Of a stretch of DNA of 64,000 nucleotides, positions 16,150 to 28,565 are shown in pieces. Position 1 is the first letter of the stretch; each line of letters starts with the position of its first letter. The position numbers and the translations under genes are program-made. Origin of the DNA: an uncultured Bacteroidota bacterium (lineage in GTDB: Bacteria > Bacteroidota > Bacteroidia > NS11-12g > UBA9320); NCBI GenBank assembly GCA_937124965.1, contig CAKZLB010000074.1, positions 1-64,000 of the forward strand. The letters run 5' to 3'. Below the pieces are notes generated by a model. That model saw only the letters and a list, made by a program, of their open reading frames with translations, searched no databases and was not told where the DNA came from.

Positions 16150-17613
16150 ATGAATAAAGCAAGGGTATATAAGTTAGGGTTATTGGTATTGTGTATACTA
16201 TTTGGTCTACAAAACACAAAAGGGCAGTCGCTTCATATCATATACGATTTTCTAAAAGATGATATAACATTTTACCGAACTAAACCTGGAGAAGCTGAGC
16301 GAAAAGAAATTGCTAGTCCAGTGGTTGGACGAAATAAGTTGGTTACGGTTGAAGTAGTTAATTTCAATAAGTTCGTGTATGCTGCTGATGCAACGTATGT
16401 CTCAAAAGTTGTTGAAACGCAGTCAGATATGGGTTTCTTAGATATCGTTAGTCCTTTGGTTAATCCTTTGGGTTCTTCAGGATTCTTTTCGGCCTTAGGT
16501 GGGCAACTACCAACTGAAATTGGTCGTGGGGGAGTTTTAGCAAGCAGAGGAGCGAGTACAGCTTACGACGATATTCTGGATGCTTACAACAAACTGTCTG
16601 CTGTTGAACAAAGTATGAAATCAGTCCATTTTGCCATTGACAAGTTAAATAAATTGAAGTACAACCCGTATTTACCTACAGACACTATTGTGCGATTATC
16701 GAGTACAATTGTGTCTCAAATATTTAATAAGAACGTGATGAACCCTAGTGATTTTTCTGAAGTCATCAGTAGATTTAACACACAGTATACAAACTCTATG
16801 GCCAGCTTTAAAATGGCCTCAACGTCTTTTCTCAGAGAGTATAGTAATTACGCAAAATCTAGAGACGGGAGTTTCGAGGGAATTGGTTTGGACGAAACTG
16901 TTCGGGGGTTTAGTAAGGAAATTGAAACTGTATCAAAATCGTTTAACATAGATTATATAACGAACCAAATAGATTACTTGGAGACAGTCTATACTTCAAT
17001 TATCTCTACCAGCTTTAGTTTCAATAGCAGTCATGCGGCAAAAGATGATGAAATTGATTTAACGTTGAACTTTTATAAACTACCTCAAAATGAAAAAGGA
17101 GAATTTCAGGCTGCAAATAGAAACGGTTTAGATGCATTGTCAAAATTGAAGGAAAAAAGCATCAACATTATTGTTCGTGGAGACATTAAAGTTTCAACAA
17201 GCATAGGTATGGCGTTTCCGACGTTTGGTGCGAGTAAAGAATATATTTATCGTGATAGTTCAATTCGAGAAATCGACGGAAGCACGTTTAGCCCGAATTT
17301 AGGAGCATATGTGAACGTTTATCCGTATACTGGTAGAACATTTCAATTAGGTGGAAGTTTTGGAGTTGGTGTACCGCTTCAAGAAGAGCAGAAAAACGTT
17401 AACATGTTTATGGGCTTTTCTATGCTGTTTGGATCAGATAGTCGCGTAGCACTTCATGGTGGTGCCAGTTTAGGACAAGTAAAGGTATTGGGCGCAGGCT
17501 ATAGCTTAGGAGATCGGCTTGACCCAACTGACGCAGTTATTCCATTAAGAAATGTTTGGGAATGGGGTACTTTTATTGGCGTTTCTTTTAATATTGCTAA
17601 AGCTGGAAATTGA
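16150..17613 (+). CDS. exported protein with outer-membrane-type C-terminal region, unknown function
   Basis: 487 residues with a signal peptide (about 1-25, ending TKGQ). The middle (about 140-300) is helical and Ser/Asn-rich. The last 150 residues contain alternating strands with Gly and aromatic residues (VSTSIGMAFPTFG, NLGAYVNVYPYTG, LGGSFGVGVPL), which look like outer-membrane beta-barrel hairpins. The C-terminus does not end in the usual Phe. No known family is recognised. The stop codon overlaps the ATG of the next small gene, so both are co-transcribed. It has 111 bases of its own upstream region, separating it from the envelope operon. Confidence 0.65.
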   Translation: MNKARVYKLGLLVLCILFGLQNTKGQSLHIIYDFLKDDITFYRTKPGEAERKEIASPVVGRNKLVTVEVVNFNKFVYAADATYVSKVVETQSDMGFLDIVSPLVNPLGSSGFFSALGGQLPTEIGRGGVLASRGASTAYDDILDAYNKLSAVEQSMKSVHFAIDKLNKLKYNPYLPTDTIVRLSSTIVSQIFNKNVMNPSDFSEVISRFNTQYTNSMASFKMASTSFLREYSNYAKSRDGSFEGIGLDETVRGFSKEIETVSKSFNIDYITNQIDYLETVYTSIISTSFSFNSSHAAKDDEIDLTLNFYKLPQNEKGEFQAANRNGLDALSKLKEKSINIIVRGDIKVSTSIGMAFPTFGASKEYIYRDSSIREIDGSTFSPNLGAYVNVYPYTGRTFQLGGSFGVGVPLQEEQKNVNMFMGFSMLFGSDSRVALHGGASLGQVKVLGAGYSLGDRLDPTDAVIPLRNVWEWGTFIGVSFNIAKAGN

Positions 17614-19859: not shown

Positions 19860-21143
19860 TTACTTTTCTTGAAACATCAAAGCATTTACAAAATCTCTGA
19901 TTAGTCTGAAACTACCGTTATAAGGTTCGAGTTCTAGCGTAAGATTTTCACGAGTATCGTCAACGTCATGATAGTGACTATAAGGTCCCATTAAATAGAA
20001 AAAGAAGGAAGGAACTCCTGCTTCGGTGAAAAAGTAGTGATCACTATTTGCCGCTTTGCCCCTTTTTTTTGTCTGAGGCAAATATTTATTCGCCTCGTTA
20101 ATCGACTCCAAGAGTTCATATTCTTTTGTAAATACTGCACCATTTACCGCCATGATACCTTCTTGGCCAGATCCCATTAAATCCATATTAACAACGAAAC
20201 GAATACTTCCAAGTGGTGTGCTTTTAGCTAAATCTTGTACAAAGAAATAACTACCCACCAATCCTGCTTCTTCAGCTGCAAAAGCAATAAATACCATGGT
20301 ATACTTTGGTGGATTATCAACATAATAGCTCGCTAAATCTAAAATCATTGCAATTCCACTCGCATTATCATTGGCACCAGGCATGATGCAAGCTTCACCC
20401 ATCCTACCAAGATGATCATAATGACCAGTCACGAAAATGATTGAATCTGGTTGTTCCGTTCCTACTATTTTACCCACTACATTTCGTGTTTTGTAATTAT
20501 TAATCAACTTGGCTTCGATGTTCACCGTTATTTCATCTTTATCTGACAAAACATCCGGTAATACACTGATAGTAACCTTGTCGTTCTGAATTCGACTTAC
20601 CGACCATGTCAGTTTCTGCATTACTCTTATTGTAATAGGATTTGTATACTTTTTTAGAAGTTTATCATATCGTTTTTGAGTGGTTTTGTCATGGGTAATG
20701 TCGTCGAACATGAGAAGATTCGTTTCCCAATCGAGTTTCAAAAGTTTCTTATAGCCCGTTTTATCCAAAAGAACTTCTTTCGTAACATGGTTAACTGTTA
20801 AAGGTTTAGATTGAATTGATGGCGCATCTGGTGAGATAATAAATTCATGGCCAGGAGACAAAGACTTTTTACTCGTTGTAATTGAAACAATGCCTGGAAA
20901 TGTGTTTACATTTAAACTGAAGTTATGATAATAGCTATTTTTGTAATATGGGTCTAAGCCAATGTTTTTGAACTGTTCTGAAATGAATGAAGCAGCTCTT
21001 CTATCTCCTGTGTTGAAATATCCCCTCCCATCATAATAGTCACTACAAAGCGTATCAATTATCTGTTGAGACGCATTCATGTTCTGACTAAAACCTACAC
21101 AGCATAGACAAATAGTAAAAATAGATAATATAGCTCGTTTCAT
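19860..21143 (-). CDS. exported M28 family zinc aminopeptidase
   Basis: 427 residues with a signal peptide ending GFSQ (residue 20). The M28 metal-binding set is complete: GHYDHLG (His241), GANDNASG (Asp259), AAEEAGLVGS (Glu291/292), NMDLMG (Asp321) and YHDVDD (His392), expected to bind two zinc ions. Residues about 70-215 form an inserted region before the catalytic core, as in PA-domain-containing or related aminopeptidases. It should trim N-terminal residues from peptides outside the cytoplasm. It converges with the GT2 fusion gene (6-base gap) and is separated from the next minus-strand gene by a terminator, so it is transcribed on its own. Confidence 0.9.
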   Translation of the reverse strand: MKRAILSIFTICLCCVGFSQNMNASQQIIDTLCSDYYDGRGYFNTGDRRAASFISEQFKNIGLDPYYKNSYYHNFSLNVNTFPGIVSITTSKKSLSPGHEFIISPDAPSIQSKPLTVNHVTKEVLLDKTGYKKLLKLDWETNLLMFDDITHDKTTQKRYDKLLKKYTNPITIRVMQKLTWSVSRIQNDKVTISVLPDVLSDKDEITVNIEAKLINNYKTRNVVGKIVGTEQPDSIIFVTGHYDHLGRMGEACIMPGANDNASGIAMILDLASYYVDNPPKYTMVFIAFAAEEAGLVGSYFFVQDLAKSTPLGSIRFVVNMDLMGSGQEGIMAVNGAVFTKEYELLESINEANKYLPQTKKRGKAANSDHYFFTEAGVPSFFFYLMGPYSHYHDVDDTRENLTLELEPYNGSFRLIRDFVNALMFQEK

Positions 21144-21155
21144 CCTTCGAAAATA

Positions 21156-21190
21156 AAAAAAGCCTTGGATTAAATGAGACCAAGGCTTTT
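21156..21190 (-). terminator. Rho-independent terminator of the caspase/trypsin cluster
   Basis: Complementary arms AAAAAGCCTTGG and CCAAGGCTTTT surround an 11-base loop, with a T-run on the minus strand. It sits 25 bases after the stop of the trypsin-ankyrin gene and just before the M28 gene, thus ending the minus-strand cluster. Confidence 0.8.
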
Positions 21191-21214
21191 CGTTCTGATA
21201 ATTAATTGAAGTTT

Positions 21215-22876
21215 TTACAATTTTCCCTTTTCAGCTTTTTTCAGATATTTAGCCGCATCCTTAAACTTAATAGCCTTCGCTTTTTTGCTTGGAGTTTTAC
21301 CTGAACTATCAGTAATTTTAGCATTTGCACCATTCTGAACTAGCGTTTGAATGAGGCTGAAACTCCATTGTCCAACAGCAAGATGCAAAACTGTTTCACC
21401 GTTTGAGTTTTTCTTATTCAAGTCAGCTCCGTTTTTTATGATTTCCTTAACAATGTTTATATCACCTTTTTTAACTGCCCAATGAAGTGGAGTATTCTTT
21501 TGATCATCAGACATGCTCAAATCATATCCCTGTTTCAAAATATATTTTACAGCTTCAAGGTTACTCTTATCAATAGCATGGTATAACATTGTTTTGCCCT
21601 CACCTAAGTCTAATTCGGTTTTCATTCCCAAATCAATCATTGATTTAAACATTTCCGTTCTGCCATTTTTTAAAGCAACTACGCCCAAAGGATCTTTACC
21701 TGGTAGAGCATCTTTAAGAAAGCTTGCAGTATCATTATTATATGCCCACTTGTAGATATTCCATTTGTCGAATCGTGAGGTGTTGTTTTTGCGGATAGCA
21801 TATTCTAAGTTCGAATAAATTGCCATAACCTTTATATTCAAAGGAATAGTTGTTATTCGCTGAACCTCAGTACTAATTTGCTGTAATGGAATGTTATAAT
21901 CATCAAAAACCGAATTAGCTTCATCGTTGCCATATCGTACTTCTTTAACACAGTTACACGTTGAATCAACATAAAAACCTTTAAGTCCTTTATCGACTCT
22001 ACCTCTCACAAGTATTCCTTCGATCATGTTTAGGCCAGCGGTGTTATATACCGGGCCTCCAGAATTTCCACCAAAAGCGTCTAAGTTGGTTCCGAACCAG
22101 GAAGTAGCTGAATTTATAGTAACCTTTGCTCCGTCTGATAATTTAAGAGGTAATCCAGAAGGAGTACCAATCATTGCTAAACCATCACCTTTAGCAATTT
22201 TAGCACCTGTTCTGAATCGAAACGGGTCGCGATCTGTTTCGCGATCTAGAAGCACAACAGCGTAGTCAAGATCTGCTTTATTGTCCAATACGCTGGTTAG
22301 AACTGTTTTAATTTTATATTGCTTCGACGTTGGTATTTGTGCAACATAGTAGTTACCATATTTTTCATGATATTTCTGAGTCATCTTTATATCATTGGTA
22401 TAATCCAATACCCATTTTTTACTTGAATAGGTAAATTGGCCATATTTGTTGGAATATGGCGTGTGTGACAGAACTTTATCATTATTGATTTTATGTGGGT
22501 CTCCAGAGATGCAATGCCCTGCGGTTACCATAATATTGGGAGCAATTAAAAATCCCGTACAACCACCAATTGCAGGTTGCTCCTTAAATCGCACTGTAGA
22601 GTGCACGTCATCAACCTTGAAATAGTTTTTTAATGCACCTTCCAACGTTAGTCCAACTACCTTGTCACCTGAAAAATCTGCAGCATTCATCGACGTCATT
22701 ACAGCTTTGGTGTATCCGTTGTAGTCGTACTGCTTGGCCTCTCGCCTACTGTCGTATCCATAGATGTCTCTTGTTGTGGATGTATCGTTTTCTTCGATAC
22801 CAAACGGATTTTGTGCAAAAACACCTATTGGGCTTAATGCAAGGCATCCGATAACCAGTTTTTTAAAATACTTCAT
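21215..22876 (-). CDS. exported trypsin-like serine protease with C-terminal ankyrin repeats
   Basis: 553 residues with a signal peptide ending GVFAQ (residue 22). The S1-type triad is intact: TAGHC (His121), ADLDYAVV (Asp204) and GGNSGGPV (Ser272). A predicted disulfide-forming Cys106/Cys122 pair flanks the His. Residues about 390-540 form four or so ankyrin repeats (KNTPLHWAVKKGDINIVKE, then NGETVLHLAVGQ), which bind proteins. An exported protease with ankyrins is unusual, since ankyrins are mostly cytoplasmic. It begins 17 bases after the pseudo-caspase gene, so the two are almost certainly one transcript. Cleavage by, or of, the neighbouring caspase is a reasonable but untested idea. Confidence 0.85.
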   Translation of the reverse strand: MKYFKKLVIGCLALSPIGVFAQNPFGIEENDTSTTRDIYGYDSRREAKQYDYNGYTKAVMTSMNAADFSGDKVVGLTLEGALKNYFKVDDVHSTVRFKEQPAIGGCTGFLIAPNIMVTAGHCISGDPHKINNDKVLSHTPYSNKYGQFTYSSKKWVLDYTNDIKMTQKYHEKYGNYYVAQIPTSKQYKIKTVLTSVLDNKADLDYAVVLLDRETDRDPFRFRTGAKIAKGDGLAMIGTPSGLPLKLSDGAKVTINSATSWFGTNLDAFGGNSGGPVYNTAGLNMIEGILVRGRVDKGLKGFYVDSTCNCVKEVRYGNDEANSVFDDYNIPLQQISTEVQRITTIPLNIKVMAIYSNLEYAIRKNNTSRFDKWNIYKWAYNNDTASFLKDALPGKDPLGVVALKNGRTEMFKSMIDLGMKTELDLGEGKTMLYHAIDKSNLEAVKYILKQGYDLSMSDDQKNTPLHWAVKKGDINIVKEIIKNGADLNKKNSNGETVLHLAVGQWSFSLIQTLVQNGANAKITDSSGKTPSKKAKAIKFKDAAKYLKKAEKGKL

Positions 22877-22893
22877 AATCCTTTTTTGTTTTT

Positions 22894-23952
22894 TTAGTTA
22901 TTAGCCATTTTTATATTTTCAAACTCGACTTTTTTAGAATTTGGTCTCTTTTTATCTTTAGTACCTTCTTCTTTAGTTCTGATAATAAGGTCTTCAATTT
23001 GCACTGCCTCTTCTTCTGTCATTACACTATTCCCACGAGTAACATTTGTGTCTAAATAAGATAAGCTCTTAACGTGCTTAAATACGTTTCTATCAAGATT
23101 GCCTTTTACCAATGGTCGTTGATTTTCGTCAATCAAACTACAAACCTCATTTATACTTTCATAAAAATCCTGATACGATGTAGAATCAGTTATCTTGTCA
23201 AAACTTTGAGCAACGGCAAATGTAAAAAGACCGTTTTCGTGGTAGTCTACTGCTCCGCCTAATGCATTTACTGCTACAATCTCAACAAGTGGTGCTCTAT
23301 TTTCATTTGGTTTGTCATATGGAACGTCATCAATGATACCGTTGATTGCTTTTTTCAATTTTAAATTCTTTAAGTCATCCGAATACGGATCTGAATCTCC
23401 GCGGCTTATGCCTTTTGTTACTGCCTCATTGTTATGTCCAAATCCGGCGTCAATTAATACCATTAACTCTCCTTCTTCACCTAATTTGTTTTGAATATCA
23501 TTTAACAAGTTGCTTAACTCTTCGTCTAAAAGATGATTCTCCATACCATAAGAGGAACTGTAGTATTTTGGAGCTCCATATAGAACTAAAGATTCATCAA
23601 AACGATCATATTCATCAGCATTTTGATCTTTTACTAATTGACCATGTCCCGAAAAATAAAACAAAAACACATCCCCTGTATCAAGAATGTCTACAAACTT
23701 TTTTAGGGTTGAAATTACATTCGTTTTCGTTGCTGCTTGATCAGTCAAACTTTTCGTATAATGAAATCCGTTTTTTTCTACGGTTCGATTCATTAATAAA
23801 ACATCATTACCGGCTTTGGTCTTGCACCAATCGGAGTCATCTCCATAATTACCTACACCAATTAAAAGGGCTTTTTTCTCTGCGCCTAAGGAAACAGTTC
23901 CAATCATCATTGTGATTGATAGACCAACTAATAACTTTTTAAATACTTTCAT
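22894..23952 (-). CDS. exported caspase-like (C14) protein with catalytic Cys replaced by Gly
   Basis: 352 residues with a signal peptide (about 1-24). The caspase p20-like core is clear: ALLIGVGNYGDD, an LFYFSGHGQ block with the catalytic His103, the acidic NADEYDRFDESLVLYGAP segment and VLIDAGFGHN. In active members the last block reads DACHSG; here the Cys position is Gly170 and the following HSG is FGH. The DNA codon there is GGA, not a sequencing-prone run. The same blocks occur in the next gene with the Cys intact, so the two are paralogues. An inactive partner or regulator, like pseudo-caspases elsewhere, is inferred. It lies between the active caspase (59-base gap) and the trypsin-ankyrin gene (17-base gap). 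Confidence 0.85.
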   Translation of the reverse strand: MKVFKKLLVGLSITMMIGTVSLGAEKKALLIGVGNYGDDSDWCKTKAGNDVLLMNRTVEKNGFHYTKSLTDQAATKTNVISTLKKFVDILDTGDVFLFYFSGHGQLVKDQNADEYDRFDESLVLYGAPKYYSSSYGMENHLLDEELSNLLNDIQNKLGEEGELMVLIDAGFGHNNEAVTKGISRGDSDPYSDDLKNLKLKKAINGIIDDVPYDKPNENRAPLVEIVAVNALGGAVDYHENGLFTFAVAQSFDKITDSTSYQDFYESINEVCSLIDENQRPLVKGNLDRNVFKHVKSLSYLDTNVTRGNSVMTEEEAVQIEDLIIRTKEEGTKDKKRPNSKKVEFENIKMANN

Positions 23953-24011
23953 AATTTTTCTTTAGTATATATATCGTTATCAACTACTTAGGTAAATGGA
24001 TTTAATGTAAA

Positions 24012-25991
24012 TTATTGTTTTATTTCAAAAGTGAATGAAGATGTTGAAGCTTCCATGCCCGAGCTTTTTATTTTACTAGTTGTTCCACCACGCGTAGACT
24101 CCTCATATCCTGTTTCAAAAAGAGCTTCCAATGGTGATATGTAAGATCGCGTTCTAGGTTTTTTTGTAATAATTGGTGTAAAGTCAATTGGTTCTTTGCT
24201 TGCAAAAAGTTTAAAAACTTCGATTCCATACGGTTCGCTAAATGTTACTAAACTACCGTCTACGATAACTGATTGACCGGCTCCTATAAAAAAGTCTTCA
24301 GGGTTTTGATTTAATGTCGGATCTTCGGCTGGAAGAATTCCATTAATTTTTCCATCGGGTTGAATGTCAATCACACTAAAATAGGCGTCTTGATCTCCAT
24401 GATTTATTACTTGTACTAACGCTCCAACTGTTTCTGAAAACACAATTGTACCGTTTATTGAAATATCTTCGATCGACAATGTGTCTGTGATTCTACCCTC
24501 GGAGTCAAACCTAACGGGTATTAGATTTAATGTAACTTGATATCTAGAATCAGTCAGTTCTAAATTTTTCATATAAATACCTCGCGAAAAGGAGGTTAGT
24601 GCATCAATAACGTTGACAAAGTTCTCTTCTGACGATATATTTTCAGCAAATACCGAACCGTCGGAAGCCCTTATAATGTCTATTGTTCCGCGACCACCAT
24701 CTTCCAAAATAAAGTCTGTTGCTGTATCACAAACATTAAATAATGGAGAATTGGATAATGAAGCCAATAAAACATCTTTATTGTCAAATCTGTCTAAATC
24801 GACTTTAATATTTAATGATAATTCACCAAAATTTTGTTCGGTTACAAAAAACCAATAGTCATCAATTGAACCAGGCAGTGTTTTGTCTAGTTTTACTTTG
24901 CACCATGTTCCTTCAGAAAATATTGTTGATCCTTCAGTGATTGGAACTTTATTTTTTATGCTTGTTGTTCCGATTGGAAACACAGCGATTTTAGTCCCAT
25001 CAAAAATCCCATTTAATTTTCCTCCGTATAAATAAACTTGATTATCTCTTAGCTTATATGCTCTGTAATAAGGATCTTGATCAATAACTTTTCCTCCAAA
25101 TAATAACCGGTCAATATCGCCTTCAATGGCTGGTTTTTGAGAAGGAGCAAGAATTGACATTTCTTTTAATATTTGAGCAAAAAATGCTCGGTAGGACATT
25201 CCAGAATTTAGCTTATCTGCACTGCGACTAATAGCAGTAGATAGTGATCCTGCACCTTCGTATTCATAATTTACTTGAGATGCTAACGATGCAGAGATTA
25301 CTACAATCGGTGAGAGTTGCGATGCATCTATAGTCGATTTTGAAGACTGGTACATTCCAACATCCTGTTTCGTTTGGTTCGGGTTATATCCTGGTCGCTT
25401 ATATGCTGGTTGTCCACCACGACTTATTGCTCCGTTTCTGCCCACAGTTCCACTATGGCATGCGTCAGCAAATACGACTAAATCACCAGTAGGACCAATT
25501 TTAAATCGAATTGCTTGTAGCAATGACTCTAACTCATCATCTCTTAAGTGTTTTGAAAAATCATAGTTAGGATCATATTTCGCAGGGGCACCATAGGCCA
25601 CAATTGCTTCATCATACCCATCAATTTCGTCATTGTTATTATCTTCAATTTGCTGGCCATGACTAGAAAAATGAATTACTACAATATCGCCTTTCGTACA
25701 TTCTTTTGATAATACCGTTAACCCTTTTACGATGTTTTCCTTGGTTGCTTCAGCATTTTTTAAAACCTTGATTTTGTCACTAGTAAAACCCTGTTTTTGA
25801 AGTGCAGATCGAATTAAAGGAATATCGTTTTCGGAACTTATGTCTCTCCAGTCTGTATCTTCTGGATAGTCACCAATTGCTACAATAAATCCACGTTTCG
25901 TCTGAGCATTGGTAAATATAAAAGAAGTTATAAGTACAAGAAACAAAGCAAGTTTCGTGTATAGATTTGTGAAGATGCGATTCGTTACCAT
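24012..25991 (-). CDS. exported caspase family (C14) protease with DUF4384-like C-terminus
   Basis: 659 residues with a signal peptide ending TNAQ (residue 30). The caspase-like core (about 33-290) has the full dyad: IHFSSHGQ (His111) and FADACHSG (Cys178), with the acidic pocket segment NNNDEIDGYDEAIVAYGAP. Metacaspase-type enzymes cut after Arg/Lys. Residues about 490-610 resemble DUF4384 (VQVINHGDQDAYFSVIDIQP, later GIEVFKLFASKEP), a domain I know as a common partner of bacterial caspases. The middle (290-490) is beta-rich and unassigned. First gene of the minus-strand cluster; 193 bases separate it from the divergent plus-strand group, where shared regulatory sites may lie. Confidence 0.88.
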   Translation of the reverse strand: MVTNRIFTNLYTKLALFLVLITSFIFTNAQTKRGFIVAIGDYPEDTDWRDISSENDIPLIRSALQKQGFTSDKIKVLKNAEATKENIVKGLTVLSKECTKGDIVVIHFSSHGQQIEDNNNDEIDGYDEAIVAYGAPAKYDPNYDFSKHLRDDELESLLQAIRFKIGPTGDLVVFADACHSGTVGRNGAISRGGQPAYKRPGYNPNQTKQDVGMYQSSKSTIDASQLSPIVVISASLASQVNYEYEGAGSLSTAISRSADKLNSGMSYRAFFAQILKEMSILAPSQKPAIEGDIDRLLFGGKVIDQDPYYRAYKLRDNQVYLYGGKLNGIFDGTKIAVFPIGTTSIKNKVPITEGSTIFSEGTWCKVKLDKTLPGSIDDYWFFVTEQNFGELSLNIKVDLDRFDNKDVLLASLSNSPLFNVCDTATDFILEDGGRGTIDIIRASDGSVFAENISSEENFVNVIDALTSFSRGIYMKNLELTDSRYQVTLNLIPVRFDSEGRITDTLSIEDISINGTIVFSETVGALVQVINHGDQDAYFSVIDIQPDGKINGILPAEDPTLNQNPEDFFIGAGQSVIVDGSLVTFSEPYGIEVFKLFASKEPIDFTPIITKKPRTRSYISPLEALFETGYEESTRGGTTSKIKSSGMEASTSSFTFEIKQ

Positions 25992-26441: not shown

Positions 26442-26789
26442 GTGCTATTAGAAAATCAAAAAACTGAAATTAGGAATAAAATTGAATCAATTGTTGAGCG
26501 CTTGAATCAAGACTTGCTTAATTTAATAGAACTTACCAAGCCAATATCGCCTGAAAATGCTATTGGAAGAATCAGTCGAATGGATGCTATTAACAATAAG
26601 TCGGTGAACGAGGCATCACTTAGAAACACCAAAAATAGGTTAGAGCGCTTAAAGCGCAGTTTAAAAGAAATTGATTCAGAGTCTTTTGGATTATGCAGGC
26701 AATGTGGAACTGAAATAGAGTTCAAGAAATTACTCGTTATGCCTGACAGTTTTCGATGTGTGACTTGTGTAAAATCAAATAGAGTGTGA
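26442..26789 (+). CDS. DksA/TraR-type zinc-finger protein
   Basis: 115 residues from a GTG start. A long helical hairpin (about 1-80, rich in Glu, Asn and Lys) precedes a four-Cys zinc site with pairs CRQC and CVTC about 18 residues apart, the layout of the DksA/TraR family, which binds the RNA polymerase secondary channel. The DxxDxA tip motif of DksA is not evident at the hairpin turn (ENAIGRISRMDAIN), so it may be a family member with a different role. Its stop overlaps the SprT-like start by four bases (GTGA), implying coupling. Confidence 0.8.
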   Translation: MLLENQKTEIRNKIESIVERLNQDLLNLIELTKPISPENAIGRISRMDAINNKSVNEASLRNTKNRLERLKRSLKEIDSESFGLCRQCGTEIEFKKLLVMPDSFRCVTCVKSNRV

Positions 26790-27409
26790 AGAGTTATATC
26801 AAAATGTTAGATGAGTATTTGCCTCCTCAAACTGCCGAGAAAGTTTGGACTCTAATACAACAAGATCAAGTTCAATTTAGAATCTCAAAGCCACGAAAAT
26901 CAAAACTTGGTGATTATCGTCCACCACATGGATCCAAGGGTCATAGAATTTCGGTAAATGCTGACCTTAATCGATTTTCGTTTTTAATAACTGTATTACA
27001 TGAATTTGCGCATTTGTATGCTTGGAAAAAACATCGCAGTACTATAAAACCACATGGGGACGAATGGAAAAAAGAGTTCCAGGAAATATTAAATCCATAT
27101 CTGGATTCAAACGTATTTCCTTCTGAAATCAAAAGGGCACTGGTGTCGTATATTTCGAATCCAGCAGCAAGCAGTTGTGCTGATGAAAATTTAATGAGAG
27201 CCTTATCAACCTATGACCATGTACAAAAAACGTTAGTTGAAGATTTACCCGAAGGAGCTACGTTCGTTCTTTCAAATGGACTGATGTTTACCAAAGGATT
27301 GAAATTGCGAAAACGGTATAAATGTTTGTGTATTACTAATAAACGGTGGTACTACGTTTCAAGCACGGCTGATGTTAAAATTATTATACCCGAAACCTCA
27401 AATACTTAG
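26786..27409 (+). CDS. SprT-like zinc metalloprotein
   Basis: 207 residues from a GTG start coupled to the preceding stop; an ATG six codons later (26804) is a possible alternative. The metalloprotease motif HEFAHLYAW gives His72, Glu73 and His76, and HGDEWK gives the third ligand His90, the SprT/Spartan arrangement. The C-terminal section (YKCLCITNKRWYYVSS) may hold a small zinc ribbon-like remnant but has only two Cys. Eukaryotic relatives cut DNA-protein crosslinks; bacterial roles are poorly known. It has no signal peptide, so it acts in the cytoplasm, unlike the peptidases around it. Confidence 0.82.
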   Translation: MKSYIKMLDEYLPPQTAEKVWTLIQQDQVQFRISKPRKSKLGDYRPPHGSKGHRISVNADLNRFSFLITVLHEFAHLYAWKKHRSTIKPHGDEWKKEFQEILNPYLDSNVFPSEIKRALVSYISNPAASSCADENLMRALSTYDHVQKTLVEDLPEGATFVLSNGLMFTKGLKLRKRYKCLCITNKRWYYVSSTADVKIIIPETSNT

Positions 27410-27455
27410 TTTTGAAATGAATTGTTTACAGTGTTCTTTTGTAAAAAATAGTCTT

Positions 27456-28565
27456 ATGAAATTTTTTAGTCTCGTTTTATTGTTTTGTATCTCTTTTTCG
27501 ATTCAAGCTCAAATATCCGCTCTTCCAGAAGGGTTCAAGATTGTAAACACTTGTGAAGCAACAGAAGTCAAAAGCCAAGATAGAACTGGAACATGCTGGA
27601 GTTTCTCTACAAGTTCATTTTTAGAATCGGAGGTACTAAAAGAACATGGAAGAACTGTCGATATTTCTGAGATGTTTACGGTTAGAAACATTTATCTGGA
27701 AAAAGCGATTCTCTACATAAGATATCATGGAATCAGTAATTTTAGCCAAGGAAGTTTGGCGCACGATGTTTTGTACTCTTACGAGAAATACGGGATGATG
27801 CCAGAGTCGGCTTACAGCGGAAAAAATGGCTCCGAGTATCATGATCATAGTAACTTGGTAAAGGAGTTAAAGGCTTACCTAGACACAATACTTAGTAAAC
27901 CATTTATAGATCCACATTGGAAAGATGGTTTTGTTTCTATATTGGATAAACAACTTGGAGAAGTAAAGGCGGTATTTGAGTATGAAGGTAATATGTATAA
28001 CTCAAAGTCATTCGCCTCCCAAGTTCTACAACTTGACATGGACAACTACATTGGTCTTACATCATTTAATCATCATGAGTATTATGATGATTTTGTAGTT
28101 GAAGTACCAGACAATTTTAGTCAAGGAGAGTATGACAACATACCTCTAGATGAACTCATGGCGGTAATGAATAACGCATTACAAAATGGCTATACGGTTG
28201 AGTGGGACGGTGATGTAAGTGAAATTGGTTTTATGCGTAGAGGCGGTTTTGCTTTTTTAAATAACGATACCAACGCATTGAAAACAGTTCCAGAGGAATT
28301 GCCAATAGAAGAAACCGTGACGCAGTCTTCTCGCCAGGTGATGTTTGACAATCATTCCACCACAGACGATCATTTAATGCACATTACTGGACTTGCAGAA
28401 GGTTTTGGTAAAAGGTTTTATGTGGTTAAAAACTCTTGGGGGAGTAAAGCCGGATTTAACGGTTATTATTTAATGAGCGAAGAGTACATTAAAGCAAAAA
28501 CAGTTTCTATTGTGGTGAACAAGTTGGCTGTCAATAAAAAGATCTTAAAAAAACTAGACGACTAA
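27456..28565 (+). CDS. exported C1 (papain/bleomycin-hydrolase-like) peptidase
   Basis: 369 residues from the ATG at 27456, which gives a signal peptide ending IQAQ (residue 19). A longer frame starting at 27372 overlaps the SprT-like gene by 38 bases and is rejected. Catalytic residues of the papain fold are visible: SQDRTGTCWSFS (Gln41, Cys47), LMHITG (His about 309) and VKNSWGSKAG (Asn about 326). The large insertion between Cys and His fits the bleomycin hydrolase/aminopeptidase C1B group. Processing of peptides outside the cytoplasm is likely. It ends the plus-strand group that diverges from the caspase cluster. Confidence 0.85.
   Translation: MKFFSLVLLFCISFSIQAQISALPEGFKIVNTCEATEVKSQDRTGTCWSFSTSSFLESEVLKEHGRTVDISEMFTVRNIYLEKAILYIRYHGISNFSQGSLAHDVLYSYEKYGMMPESAYSGKNGSEYHDHSNLVKELKAYLDTILSKPFIDPHWKDGFVSILDKQLGEVKAVFEYEGNMYNSKSFASQVLQLDMDNYIGLTSFNHHEYYDDFVVEVPDNFSQGEYDNIPLDELMAVMNNALQNGYTVEWDGDVSEIGFMRRGGFAFLNNDTNALKTVPEELPIEETVTQSSRQVMFDNHSTTDDHLMHITGLAEGFGKRFYVVKNSWGSKAGFNGYYLMSEEYIKAKTVSIVVNKLAVNKKILKKLDD

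Follow-up and report, generated by a model that had tools for sequence, protein, structure and literature searches.

Do three adjacent protease genes with export signals, one of them coding for a caspase, form a proteolytic system outside the cytoplasm, and which of them belong to its core? Most discussion of bacterial caspases places them in the cytoplasm, with roles in stress or in defence against phages. The question is raised by a stretch of 64,000 nucleotides from an uncultured Bacteroidota bacterium (the window), whose minus strand carries all the features described below except those of protein X.

The protease locus and its surroundings

The genes code for an exported caspase of the metacaspase/orthocaspase type (C14; 24,012–25,991; 659 aa), an exported pseudo-caspase in which the C-terminal DUF4384-like part is absent (22,894–23,952; 352 aa), and an S1 protease, exported as well, with ankyrin repeats in its C-terminal part (S1-Ank; 21,215–22,876; 553 aa). 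The coordinates of the original prediction were reproduced, as were the gaps of 59 bases between the caspase and pseudo-caspase genes and of 17 bases between the pseudo-caspase and S1-Ank genes. Signal peptides had been proposed for all three proteins, and a crude hydrophobicity check together with inspection found signal-peptide-like N-termini on each, likewise in the relatives with complete N-termini. In the caspase, this N-terminus comprises residues 1–29 (25,905–25,991; ...NA↓Q), with a hydrophobic segment and an A↓Q junction that are similar in relatives.

The intrinsic terminator expected 3' of the S1-Ank gene (about 21,156–21,192) folds as a hairpin with a U-run (−16.8 kcal/mol, z −1.9); a simple consensus scan for terminators did not pick it up, and comparison with Rfam gave nothing informative. 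Hairpins occupy the same gap in five relatives (G001, G002, G003, G004, and G009; z −3.4 to −9.0), in which the structure is kept and the sequence is not. The conserved next gene past the terminator codes for an exported M28 peptidase (19,860–21,143; Pfam M28, E = 3e-36), located at the same place in these five genomes and in G005; its membership of the module is uncertain. Papain-like C1 and SprT-like peptidases are also encoded in the neighbourhood (Pfam), and the locus is syntenic within the genus, with no island.

The active caspase, its inactive paralogue and the S1 protease

The caspase matches Peptidase_C14 (Pfam E = 2e-16), its closest solved structures by fold are metacaspases and GSU0716, and the intact dyad anticipated by the original prediction, H111/C178, is present in all homologues (53/53 for each residue), which places the protein in family C14 as a caspase-fold domain with a His-Cys dyad. 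The DUF4384-like tail fared less well: a Pfam match exists, at 22.3 bits against a curated cut-off of 27. In TbMCA2, the basic-P1 pocket is formed by Cys92, Asp95, Ser156, and Asp211 (PMC4357240); motif mapping on alignments equates the last three with the invariant D56, S109, and D176 of the caspase, and puts Ser53 at the position of Cys92, the pocket residue whose loss lowers activity in characterised enzymes (PMC5756287). Metacaspases cleave after Arg or Lys (PMC4357240), and the caspase is predicted to cut after Arg. Two candidate sites are conserved, SR191↓G192 in the linker past the catalytic Cys (25,416–25,421; R191 in 52/53, G192 in 53/53), in a loop near the low-confidence segments 181–184 and 211–218 of the model, and TR634↓G635 in a disordered stretch of the tail (24,087–24,092; R634 in 51/51), where residues 631–644 have a pLDDT below 50. 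The HC dyad, the acidic residues at the mapped pocket positions, the expected Arg/Lys specificity, and autoprocessing, required by the orthocaspase MaOC1 and a candidate property here, are common to MaOC1, the metacaspases (C14B; PMC5756287, PMC4357240), and this caspase. It differs from them in being exported, in having a C-terminal beta-rich tail with a second conserved Arg-Gly site, in its genetic tie to an S1 protease, and in the Ser replacing the pocket Cys.

The pseudo-caspase also matches Peptidase_C14 (Pfam E = 1e-13) and has indeed lost its catalytic Cys, which is replaced by Gly170 (23,443–23,445) within [DE]AGFG instead of DACHSG. This substitution occurs in all six pseudo-caspases, while His is kept in five of them, so that the dyad is His-Gly or Asn-Gly; a caspase domain with no intact His-Cys dyad makes the protein a pseudo-orthocaspase, in which the Tyr-Ser substitution common in described clades is absent. 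A candidate cut site is retained in the linker (R184-G185; 23,398–23,403; 6/6). The six sequences found, each from a different genome, are monophyletic (support 100/99), and the pseudo-caspase is a later lineage-specific addition of single origin; together with a dN/dS of 0.06 for the closest pair, the single clade led us to reject a decaying copy. By analogy, the pseudo-caspase and active caspase resemble c-FLIP long beside caspase-8, in which a dead paralogue without the catalytic Cys keeps a linker cleavage site, but the likeness is convergent, extracytoplasmic, and without death domains. A regulatory role, as originally suggested, is possible in view of the single origin, the purifying selection, and the preserved Arg-Gly; as regards a heterodimer with the active caspase, the type I metacaspases described so far are monomeric (PMC4357240).

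As had been expected, the third protein is an S1 protease of the chymotrypsin-like type with a full triad (H121/D204/S272, each in 42/42 homologues; Trypsin_2, Pfam E = 1e-10), a Cys106/Cys122 pair (both 42/42), and ankyrin repeats over about residues 397–549 (21,230–21,688; Ank_2, Pfam E = 6e-35), seen as helix pairs in the AlphaFold2 model (mean pLDDT 86). Because of D266 (41/42), six residues ahead of Ser272 and at what we take to be the trypsin-189 position, a basic specificity is predicted. Whole-length searches against PDB and by fold were swamped by ankyrin matches and uninformative for the S1 part, whose best sequence match in PDB was the glutamyl endopeptidase 1p3c (S1B; profile E = 7e-7), a type of enzyme that has no ankyrins and prefers Glu. 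The alignment with mature glutamyl endopeptidases starts only at the Cys-His loop and leaves the N-terminal register unproven.

A predicted propeptide, Q22–R36 (22,769–22,813), precedes the sequence D37-I-Y-G-x-D-x-R. Q22, R36, D42, and R44 are invariant (40/40), and pLDDT falls below 50 for exactly residues 13–36, so R36 ends a disordered segment. The following residue is Gly, Asp, or Asn, with Asp, not Gly, at P1' in the window's lineage. Outgroup S1 proteases with no such caspase in the fetched flanks have Lys or Arg at position 36 in 7 of 10 cases; Lys or Arg at this position is therefore no sure sign of cleavage by a caspase, and the idea that R36 exists because of the caspase is weakened. 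It is the Arg form that is fixed in caspase-linked S1-Ank (40/40 versus 1/10 in outgroups).

A conserved caspase–S1 pair and the [ST]RG motif

The original prediction treated the three genes as one unit and proposed looking for them in other genomes. Five relatives from two genera carry the pseudo-caspase, and all five hold the same three genes, export signals included, so that the outcome named there as refuting did not arise. The unit itself did not stand, as the pseudo-caspase was found in six genomes; the core, older and wider than the three-gene form, consists of the caspase plus an S1 protease that is also exported, and protein X often accompanies them. The caspase adjoins an exported S1 protease in 14 of the 22 sampled genera, the partner belonging to one of two subfamilies, ankyrin or HtrA-like; the alternative partners lack the ankyrins that, in the original prediction, may dock a partner. 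Among 25 further S1-Ank genomes, 23 hold the caspase, and none was found in the other two, which are drafts. The linkage persists with rearranged gene order and in unrelated surroundings, and in G019 the pair is broken together.

Protein X is exported and encoded on the plus strand of the window (16,150–17,613). It matches flavobacterial X proteins (HMM E = 6e-38), whose genes lie immediately ahead of the caspase gene in operons of Flavobacteriaceae, some of which include a DUF900 hydrolase. No Pfam or NCBIfam family was found for it, a PDB search gave nothing, and its C-terminus looks barrel-like by eye. A candidate site, [ST]R133-G134 (16,546–16,551, plus strand), occurs in every X protein (23/23) and lies in a stretch rich in gaps. 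The motif [ST]RG thus stands at invariant positions in the caspase linker and disordered tail, the pseudo-caspase linker, and X, with a related site, Arg followed by Gly, Asp, or Asn, at the end of the S1 propeptide. In the 53 caspases it occurs 213 times, versus 12 in shuffles.

A putative envelope cascade and its alternatives

Given that metacaspases cut after Arg or Lys, we propose an extracytoplasmic caspase–S1 module, to which we give an even chance. Autoprocessing at the [ST]R↓G sites R191 and R634 would yield the mature caspase, which would then cut S1-Ank after R36; with the propeptide gone, the second protease would have its mature N-terminus and be active. The caspase would also clip the outer-membrane-like X at [ST]R133↓G. 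The dead paralogue inserted between both genes in the window's lineage would be clipped at its linker R↓G site and may, as a cleavable protein, regulate the caspase or serve it as a decoy. Envelope remodelling or damage signalling could be the output. The sequences themselves show the linkage, the export signals, the invariance and placement of the motif, and the loss of Cys, and from these the cuts and their order, the part played by the pseudo-caspase, X as a substrate, and the output are inferred. The HtrA-like partners have no propeptide of the S1-Ank type, so there must be more to the function than zymogen activation. Other points against the proposal are Ser53 in place of the pocket Cys, the basic residues at position 36 of outgroup S1 proteases, Asp at P1' in the window's own lineage, and the two draft S1-Ank genomes in which the caspase was not found. 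The exported proteolytic cascade of the original prediction is in this way retained as a proposal, now with candidate cleavage sites.

The direction could also be reversed or mutual, with the caspase downstream of S1-Ank, which would activate itself at R36 and cut X and both caspase paralogues at [ST]R↓G. D266 predicts the basic preference that this demands, and the outgroups keep Lys or Arg at position 36, as self-activating zymogens would. We consider it rather unlikely, as Lys, common in outgroups, never occurs at R36 in caspase-linked members, and R191 and R634 are kept in caspases with HtrA-like S1 partners or with none, so these sites do not depend on S1-Ank. Still less probable is that the [ST]RG motifs serve as signals for structure or sorting, with the proteases as co-expressed quality-control or nutritional enzymes of the envelope, acting separately on damaged or foreign protein. 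The M28, C1, and SprT-like neighbours fit such a peptidase-rich locus, and HtrA-like partners are typical of envelope quality control; the motif, however, is invariant in unrelated folds, twice in disordered stretches (ended by R36 and containing R634), and Arg-Gly persists in the pseudo-caspase after active-site loss.

Very improbable is a known anti-phage or self-killing conflict system exported by chance, even though such systems often contain caspase and trypsin domains, their caspases have alpha/beta-hydrolases as partners (PMC7159879), and some flavobacterial operons have the DUF900 hydrolase. Export signals are present on every part, and the syntenic locus is no island. The EACC1-associated caspase system was rejected (18.3 and 27.2 bits against a curated cut-off of 140), as was any defence system listed in PADLOC, for which only partial, generic matches to models of caspases, ankyrins, and proteases were obtained and no specific system protein. 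EACC1, VMAP, and NucA-trypsin systems (PMC7159879, PMC8195603) rely on peptidases of the caspase or trypsin type for activation, including a caspase with an alpha/beta-hydrolase partner, but their defining EAD, NTPase, or EACC1 partners are absent among the neighbours, which were scanned in part with Pfam.

No such exported caspase–S1 module was found in the literature searched. The QC-type pseudo-orthocaspases of Alphaproteobacteria also combine an intact-triad trypsin-like domain, caspase p20, and DUF4384, but fused in one chain, with Cys kept and His lost; a separate active caspase, ankyrins, and X are lacking there, and the part of the source covering this clade describes no export (PMC6426788). 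In nuclease–protease pairs, a trypsin-like protease is paired with a proenzyme activated by site-specific cleavage, and caspase-nuclease (canu) loci exist (PMC12799240); these systems act against viruses by killing the cell, with a DNase as effector, whereas here there are two exported proteases and the nuclease is absent.

Judged from sequence, the caspase–S1 linkage and invariant Arg-Gly sites suggest an undescribed cell-envelope protease cascade. More doubtful is the fullest version, in which a zymogen cascade of the envelope running from caspase to serine protease, with the pseudo-caspase as its cleavable regulator, an outer-membrane-like substrate, and one shared [ST]R↓G motif, would be a counterpart of initiator/executioner cascades matched by no described system. 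The predictions concern single residues (R36, R191, R634, and R133 of X) and can be tested both on purified proteins and in marine bacteria available in culture, for instance Leeuwenhoekiella and Winogradskyella. If true, caspase signalling would extend to the bacterial envelope, by way of a conserved caspase that is exported and has a fixed protease partner, candidate cut sites, and a candidate substrate in the outer membrane.

The exported protease cluster

The cluster consists of an exported C14 caspase (24012–25991, minus strand, 659 aa), a second C14 caspase, here called the pseudo-caspase (22894–23952, minus, 352 aa), and S1-Ank (21215–22876, minus, 553 aa), a Trypsin_2 protease with C-terminal ankyrin repeats. 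The original prediction for these genes is confirmed: they are co-directional and separated by 59 and 17 bases, the His111/Cys178 dyad of the first caspase is intact, Gly170 occupies the Cys position of the second, and S1-Ank retains the full S1 triad (H121/D204/S272). Folding confirms the shared terminator, and five relatives have hairpins of different sequence in the same gap. The DUF4384-like caspase tail was borne out in part, as a match exists with a score below the curated cut-off. Signal-peptide-like N-termini were seen on all three proteins and likewise in relatives; one caspase homologue (G012) has a lipobox-like IIQGC in their place. The S1-domain pair Cys106/Cys122, kept in 42/42 homologues, is presumably the usual S1 disulphide, and S1-Ank therefore fits an exported protein. 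The caspase has a single close paralogue in the 4.1-Mb genome to which the window belongs, the pseudo-caspase (31% identity). That genome also encodes, elsewhere, a WD40-caspase protein (L091:5662–9093, G000:C36).

The divergent neighbours (26442–28565, plus), conserved in the genus, encode a DksA/TraR-type zinc finger protein, a SprT-like protein and a papain-like C1 peptidase, and point to a peptidase-rich locus.

Linkage of the caspase to exported S1 proteases

The same order of caspase, pseudo-caspase and S1-Ank, then an exported M28 peptidase, was found in four genomes of the genus (G001–G004) and one of a second genus (G009). In G003 the cluster is divided between two contigs, and in G004 (L076:8019–9633) an in-frame stop or frameshift, which may be a sequencing error, breaks the caspase frame. 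The M28 gene (19860–21143, minus, in the window) comes next after S1-Ank in six genomes. In G005 (L078, 9883–11436 and 11433–12737) the start of the M28 gene overlaps the stop codon of S1-Ank, while elsewhere a terminator lies between them.

Because the wider region is syntenic within the genus, conservation of the cluster there is by itself weak proof, and linkage outside the genus is stronger evidence. In G005, G008, G028, G033, G052, G077 and G082 the caspase is followed directly by S1-Ank, without a pseudo-caspase and mostly in surroundings different from the window's. A similar WD40-caspase protein (L079:11756–15238) directly follows the pair in G008. Among Flavobacteriaceae, the order is protein X, caspase, S1-Ank in Leeuwenhoekiella, and S1-Ank, DUF900 hydrolase, X, caspase in Winogradskyella, with spacings mostly below 50 bases. 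The hydrolase is an exported alpha/beta-hydrolase (L098:9537–10955 and similar loci), and one Leeuwenhoekiella locus (L104) has a 1338-aa caspase protein downstream of S1-Ank. Protein X itself (16150–17613, plus, in the window) is exported, and its flavobacterial homologues lie directly upstream of the caspase. Fold and family searches with it gave no match; by eye, its C-terminus resembles an outer-membrane barrel.

The caspase is present in 23 of 25 further S1-Ank genomes. Counting only genomes found via the caspase, not via the protease, the pairing occurs in 14 of 22 genera, against well below one expected by chance if about 10 S1 proteases are assumed per 2500 genes. At loci lacking S1-Ank, another exported S1 protease, HtrA-like and without ankyrins, often lies next to the caspase (G006, G013, G015, G017, G037, G049, G176, G245, G275, G300 and G397; L087:6484–7953, L085:6482–7912, L086:10372–11826, and L200–L202, L206, L209, L215 and L216). 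In G019 (L218:6395–9911) caspase and S1 genes are broken jointly. The caspase homologue in G398 (L210:6384–8423) reads DFCNSGG for DACHSGT, with the Cys retained.

A shared [ST]RG motif and a possible cascade

Outside the active sites, invariant columns are repeatedly [ST]RG or near it. They include R191 (52/53) and G192 (53/53) in the caspase linker after the catalytic Cys, R634 in its tail (51/51), R133-G134 within a gap-rich stretch of X (23/23), and R184-G185 of the pseudo-caspase (6/6), despite loss of the Cys and the R185 equivalent. In S1-Ank, R36 (40/40) stands immediately ahead of GxDxR; the residue before it is in most cases Ser, Thr or Pro, and the one after it is Gly in 34 proteins and Asp in the window's lineage. 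The 53 caspases hold 213 [ST]RG (shuffled mean, 12); of the nine that the window has in ORFs of at least 120 aa, the caspase holds three, the pseudo-caspase two and X one, and the other three are elsewhere. AlphaFold2 confidence is below 50 at S1-Ank residues 13–36, stopping exactly at R36, and at caspase residues 181–184, 211–213, 215–218 and 631–644, the last containing R634. An invariant motif in predicted disorder suggests a candidate cleavage or binding site.

S1 homologues from Elusimicrobia, Bdellovibrionales (L128–L143) and others, whose retrieved flanking sequence contains no caspase of this kind, served as a control. They keep GxDxR, and position 36 is Lys or Arg in seven of ten, mostly Lys and just once Arg (Arg in caspase-linked versus outgroup proteins, Fisher P ~4e-9, ignoring relatedness). 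Processing after a basic residue at this position may thus be ancestral to the S1 group; the marker of caspase-linked members is the fixed Arg. Two outgroup proteins have a signal peptide that seems to lead directly into GxDxR, which agrees with a mature N-terminus at the motif.

Metacaspases cleave after Arg/Lys, and the TbMCA2 pocket includes Asp95, Ser156, Asp211 and Cys92 (PMC4357240); the first three correspond to invariant caspase D56, S109 and D176, and Cys92 to Ser53. The orthocaspase MaOC1 requires autoprocessing (PMC5756287). We propose that the exported caspase would cleave itself at R191 and R634, remove the S1-Ank propeptide at R36, and clip X and the pseudo-caspase. Caspases with HtrA-like partners retain their sites, which favors self-processing; however, S1-Ank, with Asp266 at the trypsin-189-like position, might itself initiate the cascade. 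The direction of the cascade is something we infer, as are the function of the pseudo-caspase and the output of the module.

The nearest described architecture is an alphaproteobacterial fusion of trypsin, QC-pseudo-orthocaspase and DUF4384 (PMC6426788). The module has a common logic with caspase/trypsin conflict systems (PMC7159879, PMC8195603) and protease-activated nuclease pairs (PMC12799240); those of their defining features that could be tested were not found at the locus. No description of the module was found in the open-access literature that was searched.

The pseudo-caspase within the pair

Among 108 genomes of the order and 395 of the class, the pseudo-caspase was found in six only, whose copies form one clade (support 100/99, in a long-branched tree whose root was not inferred). 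All six read [DE]AGFG in place of DACHSG, and the His is retained in five, with Asn in G009. Between the two closest copies dN/dS is 0.06, higher than in neighbouring genes and at high dS; with that qualification, the sequence appears clearly constrained. The proposed proteolytic cascade, with the pseudo-caspase regulating the caspase, is supported in part: the caspase is linked to an exported S1 protease, and the pseudo-caspase is a maintained pseudoenzyme within that more widely conserved pair.
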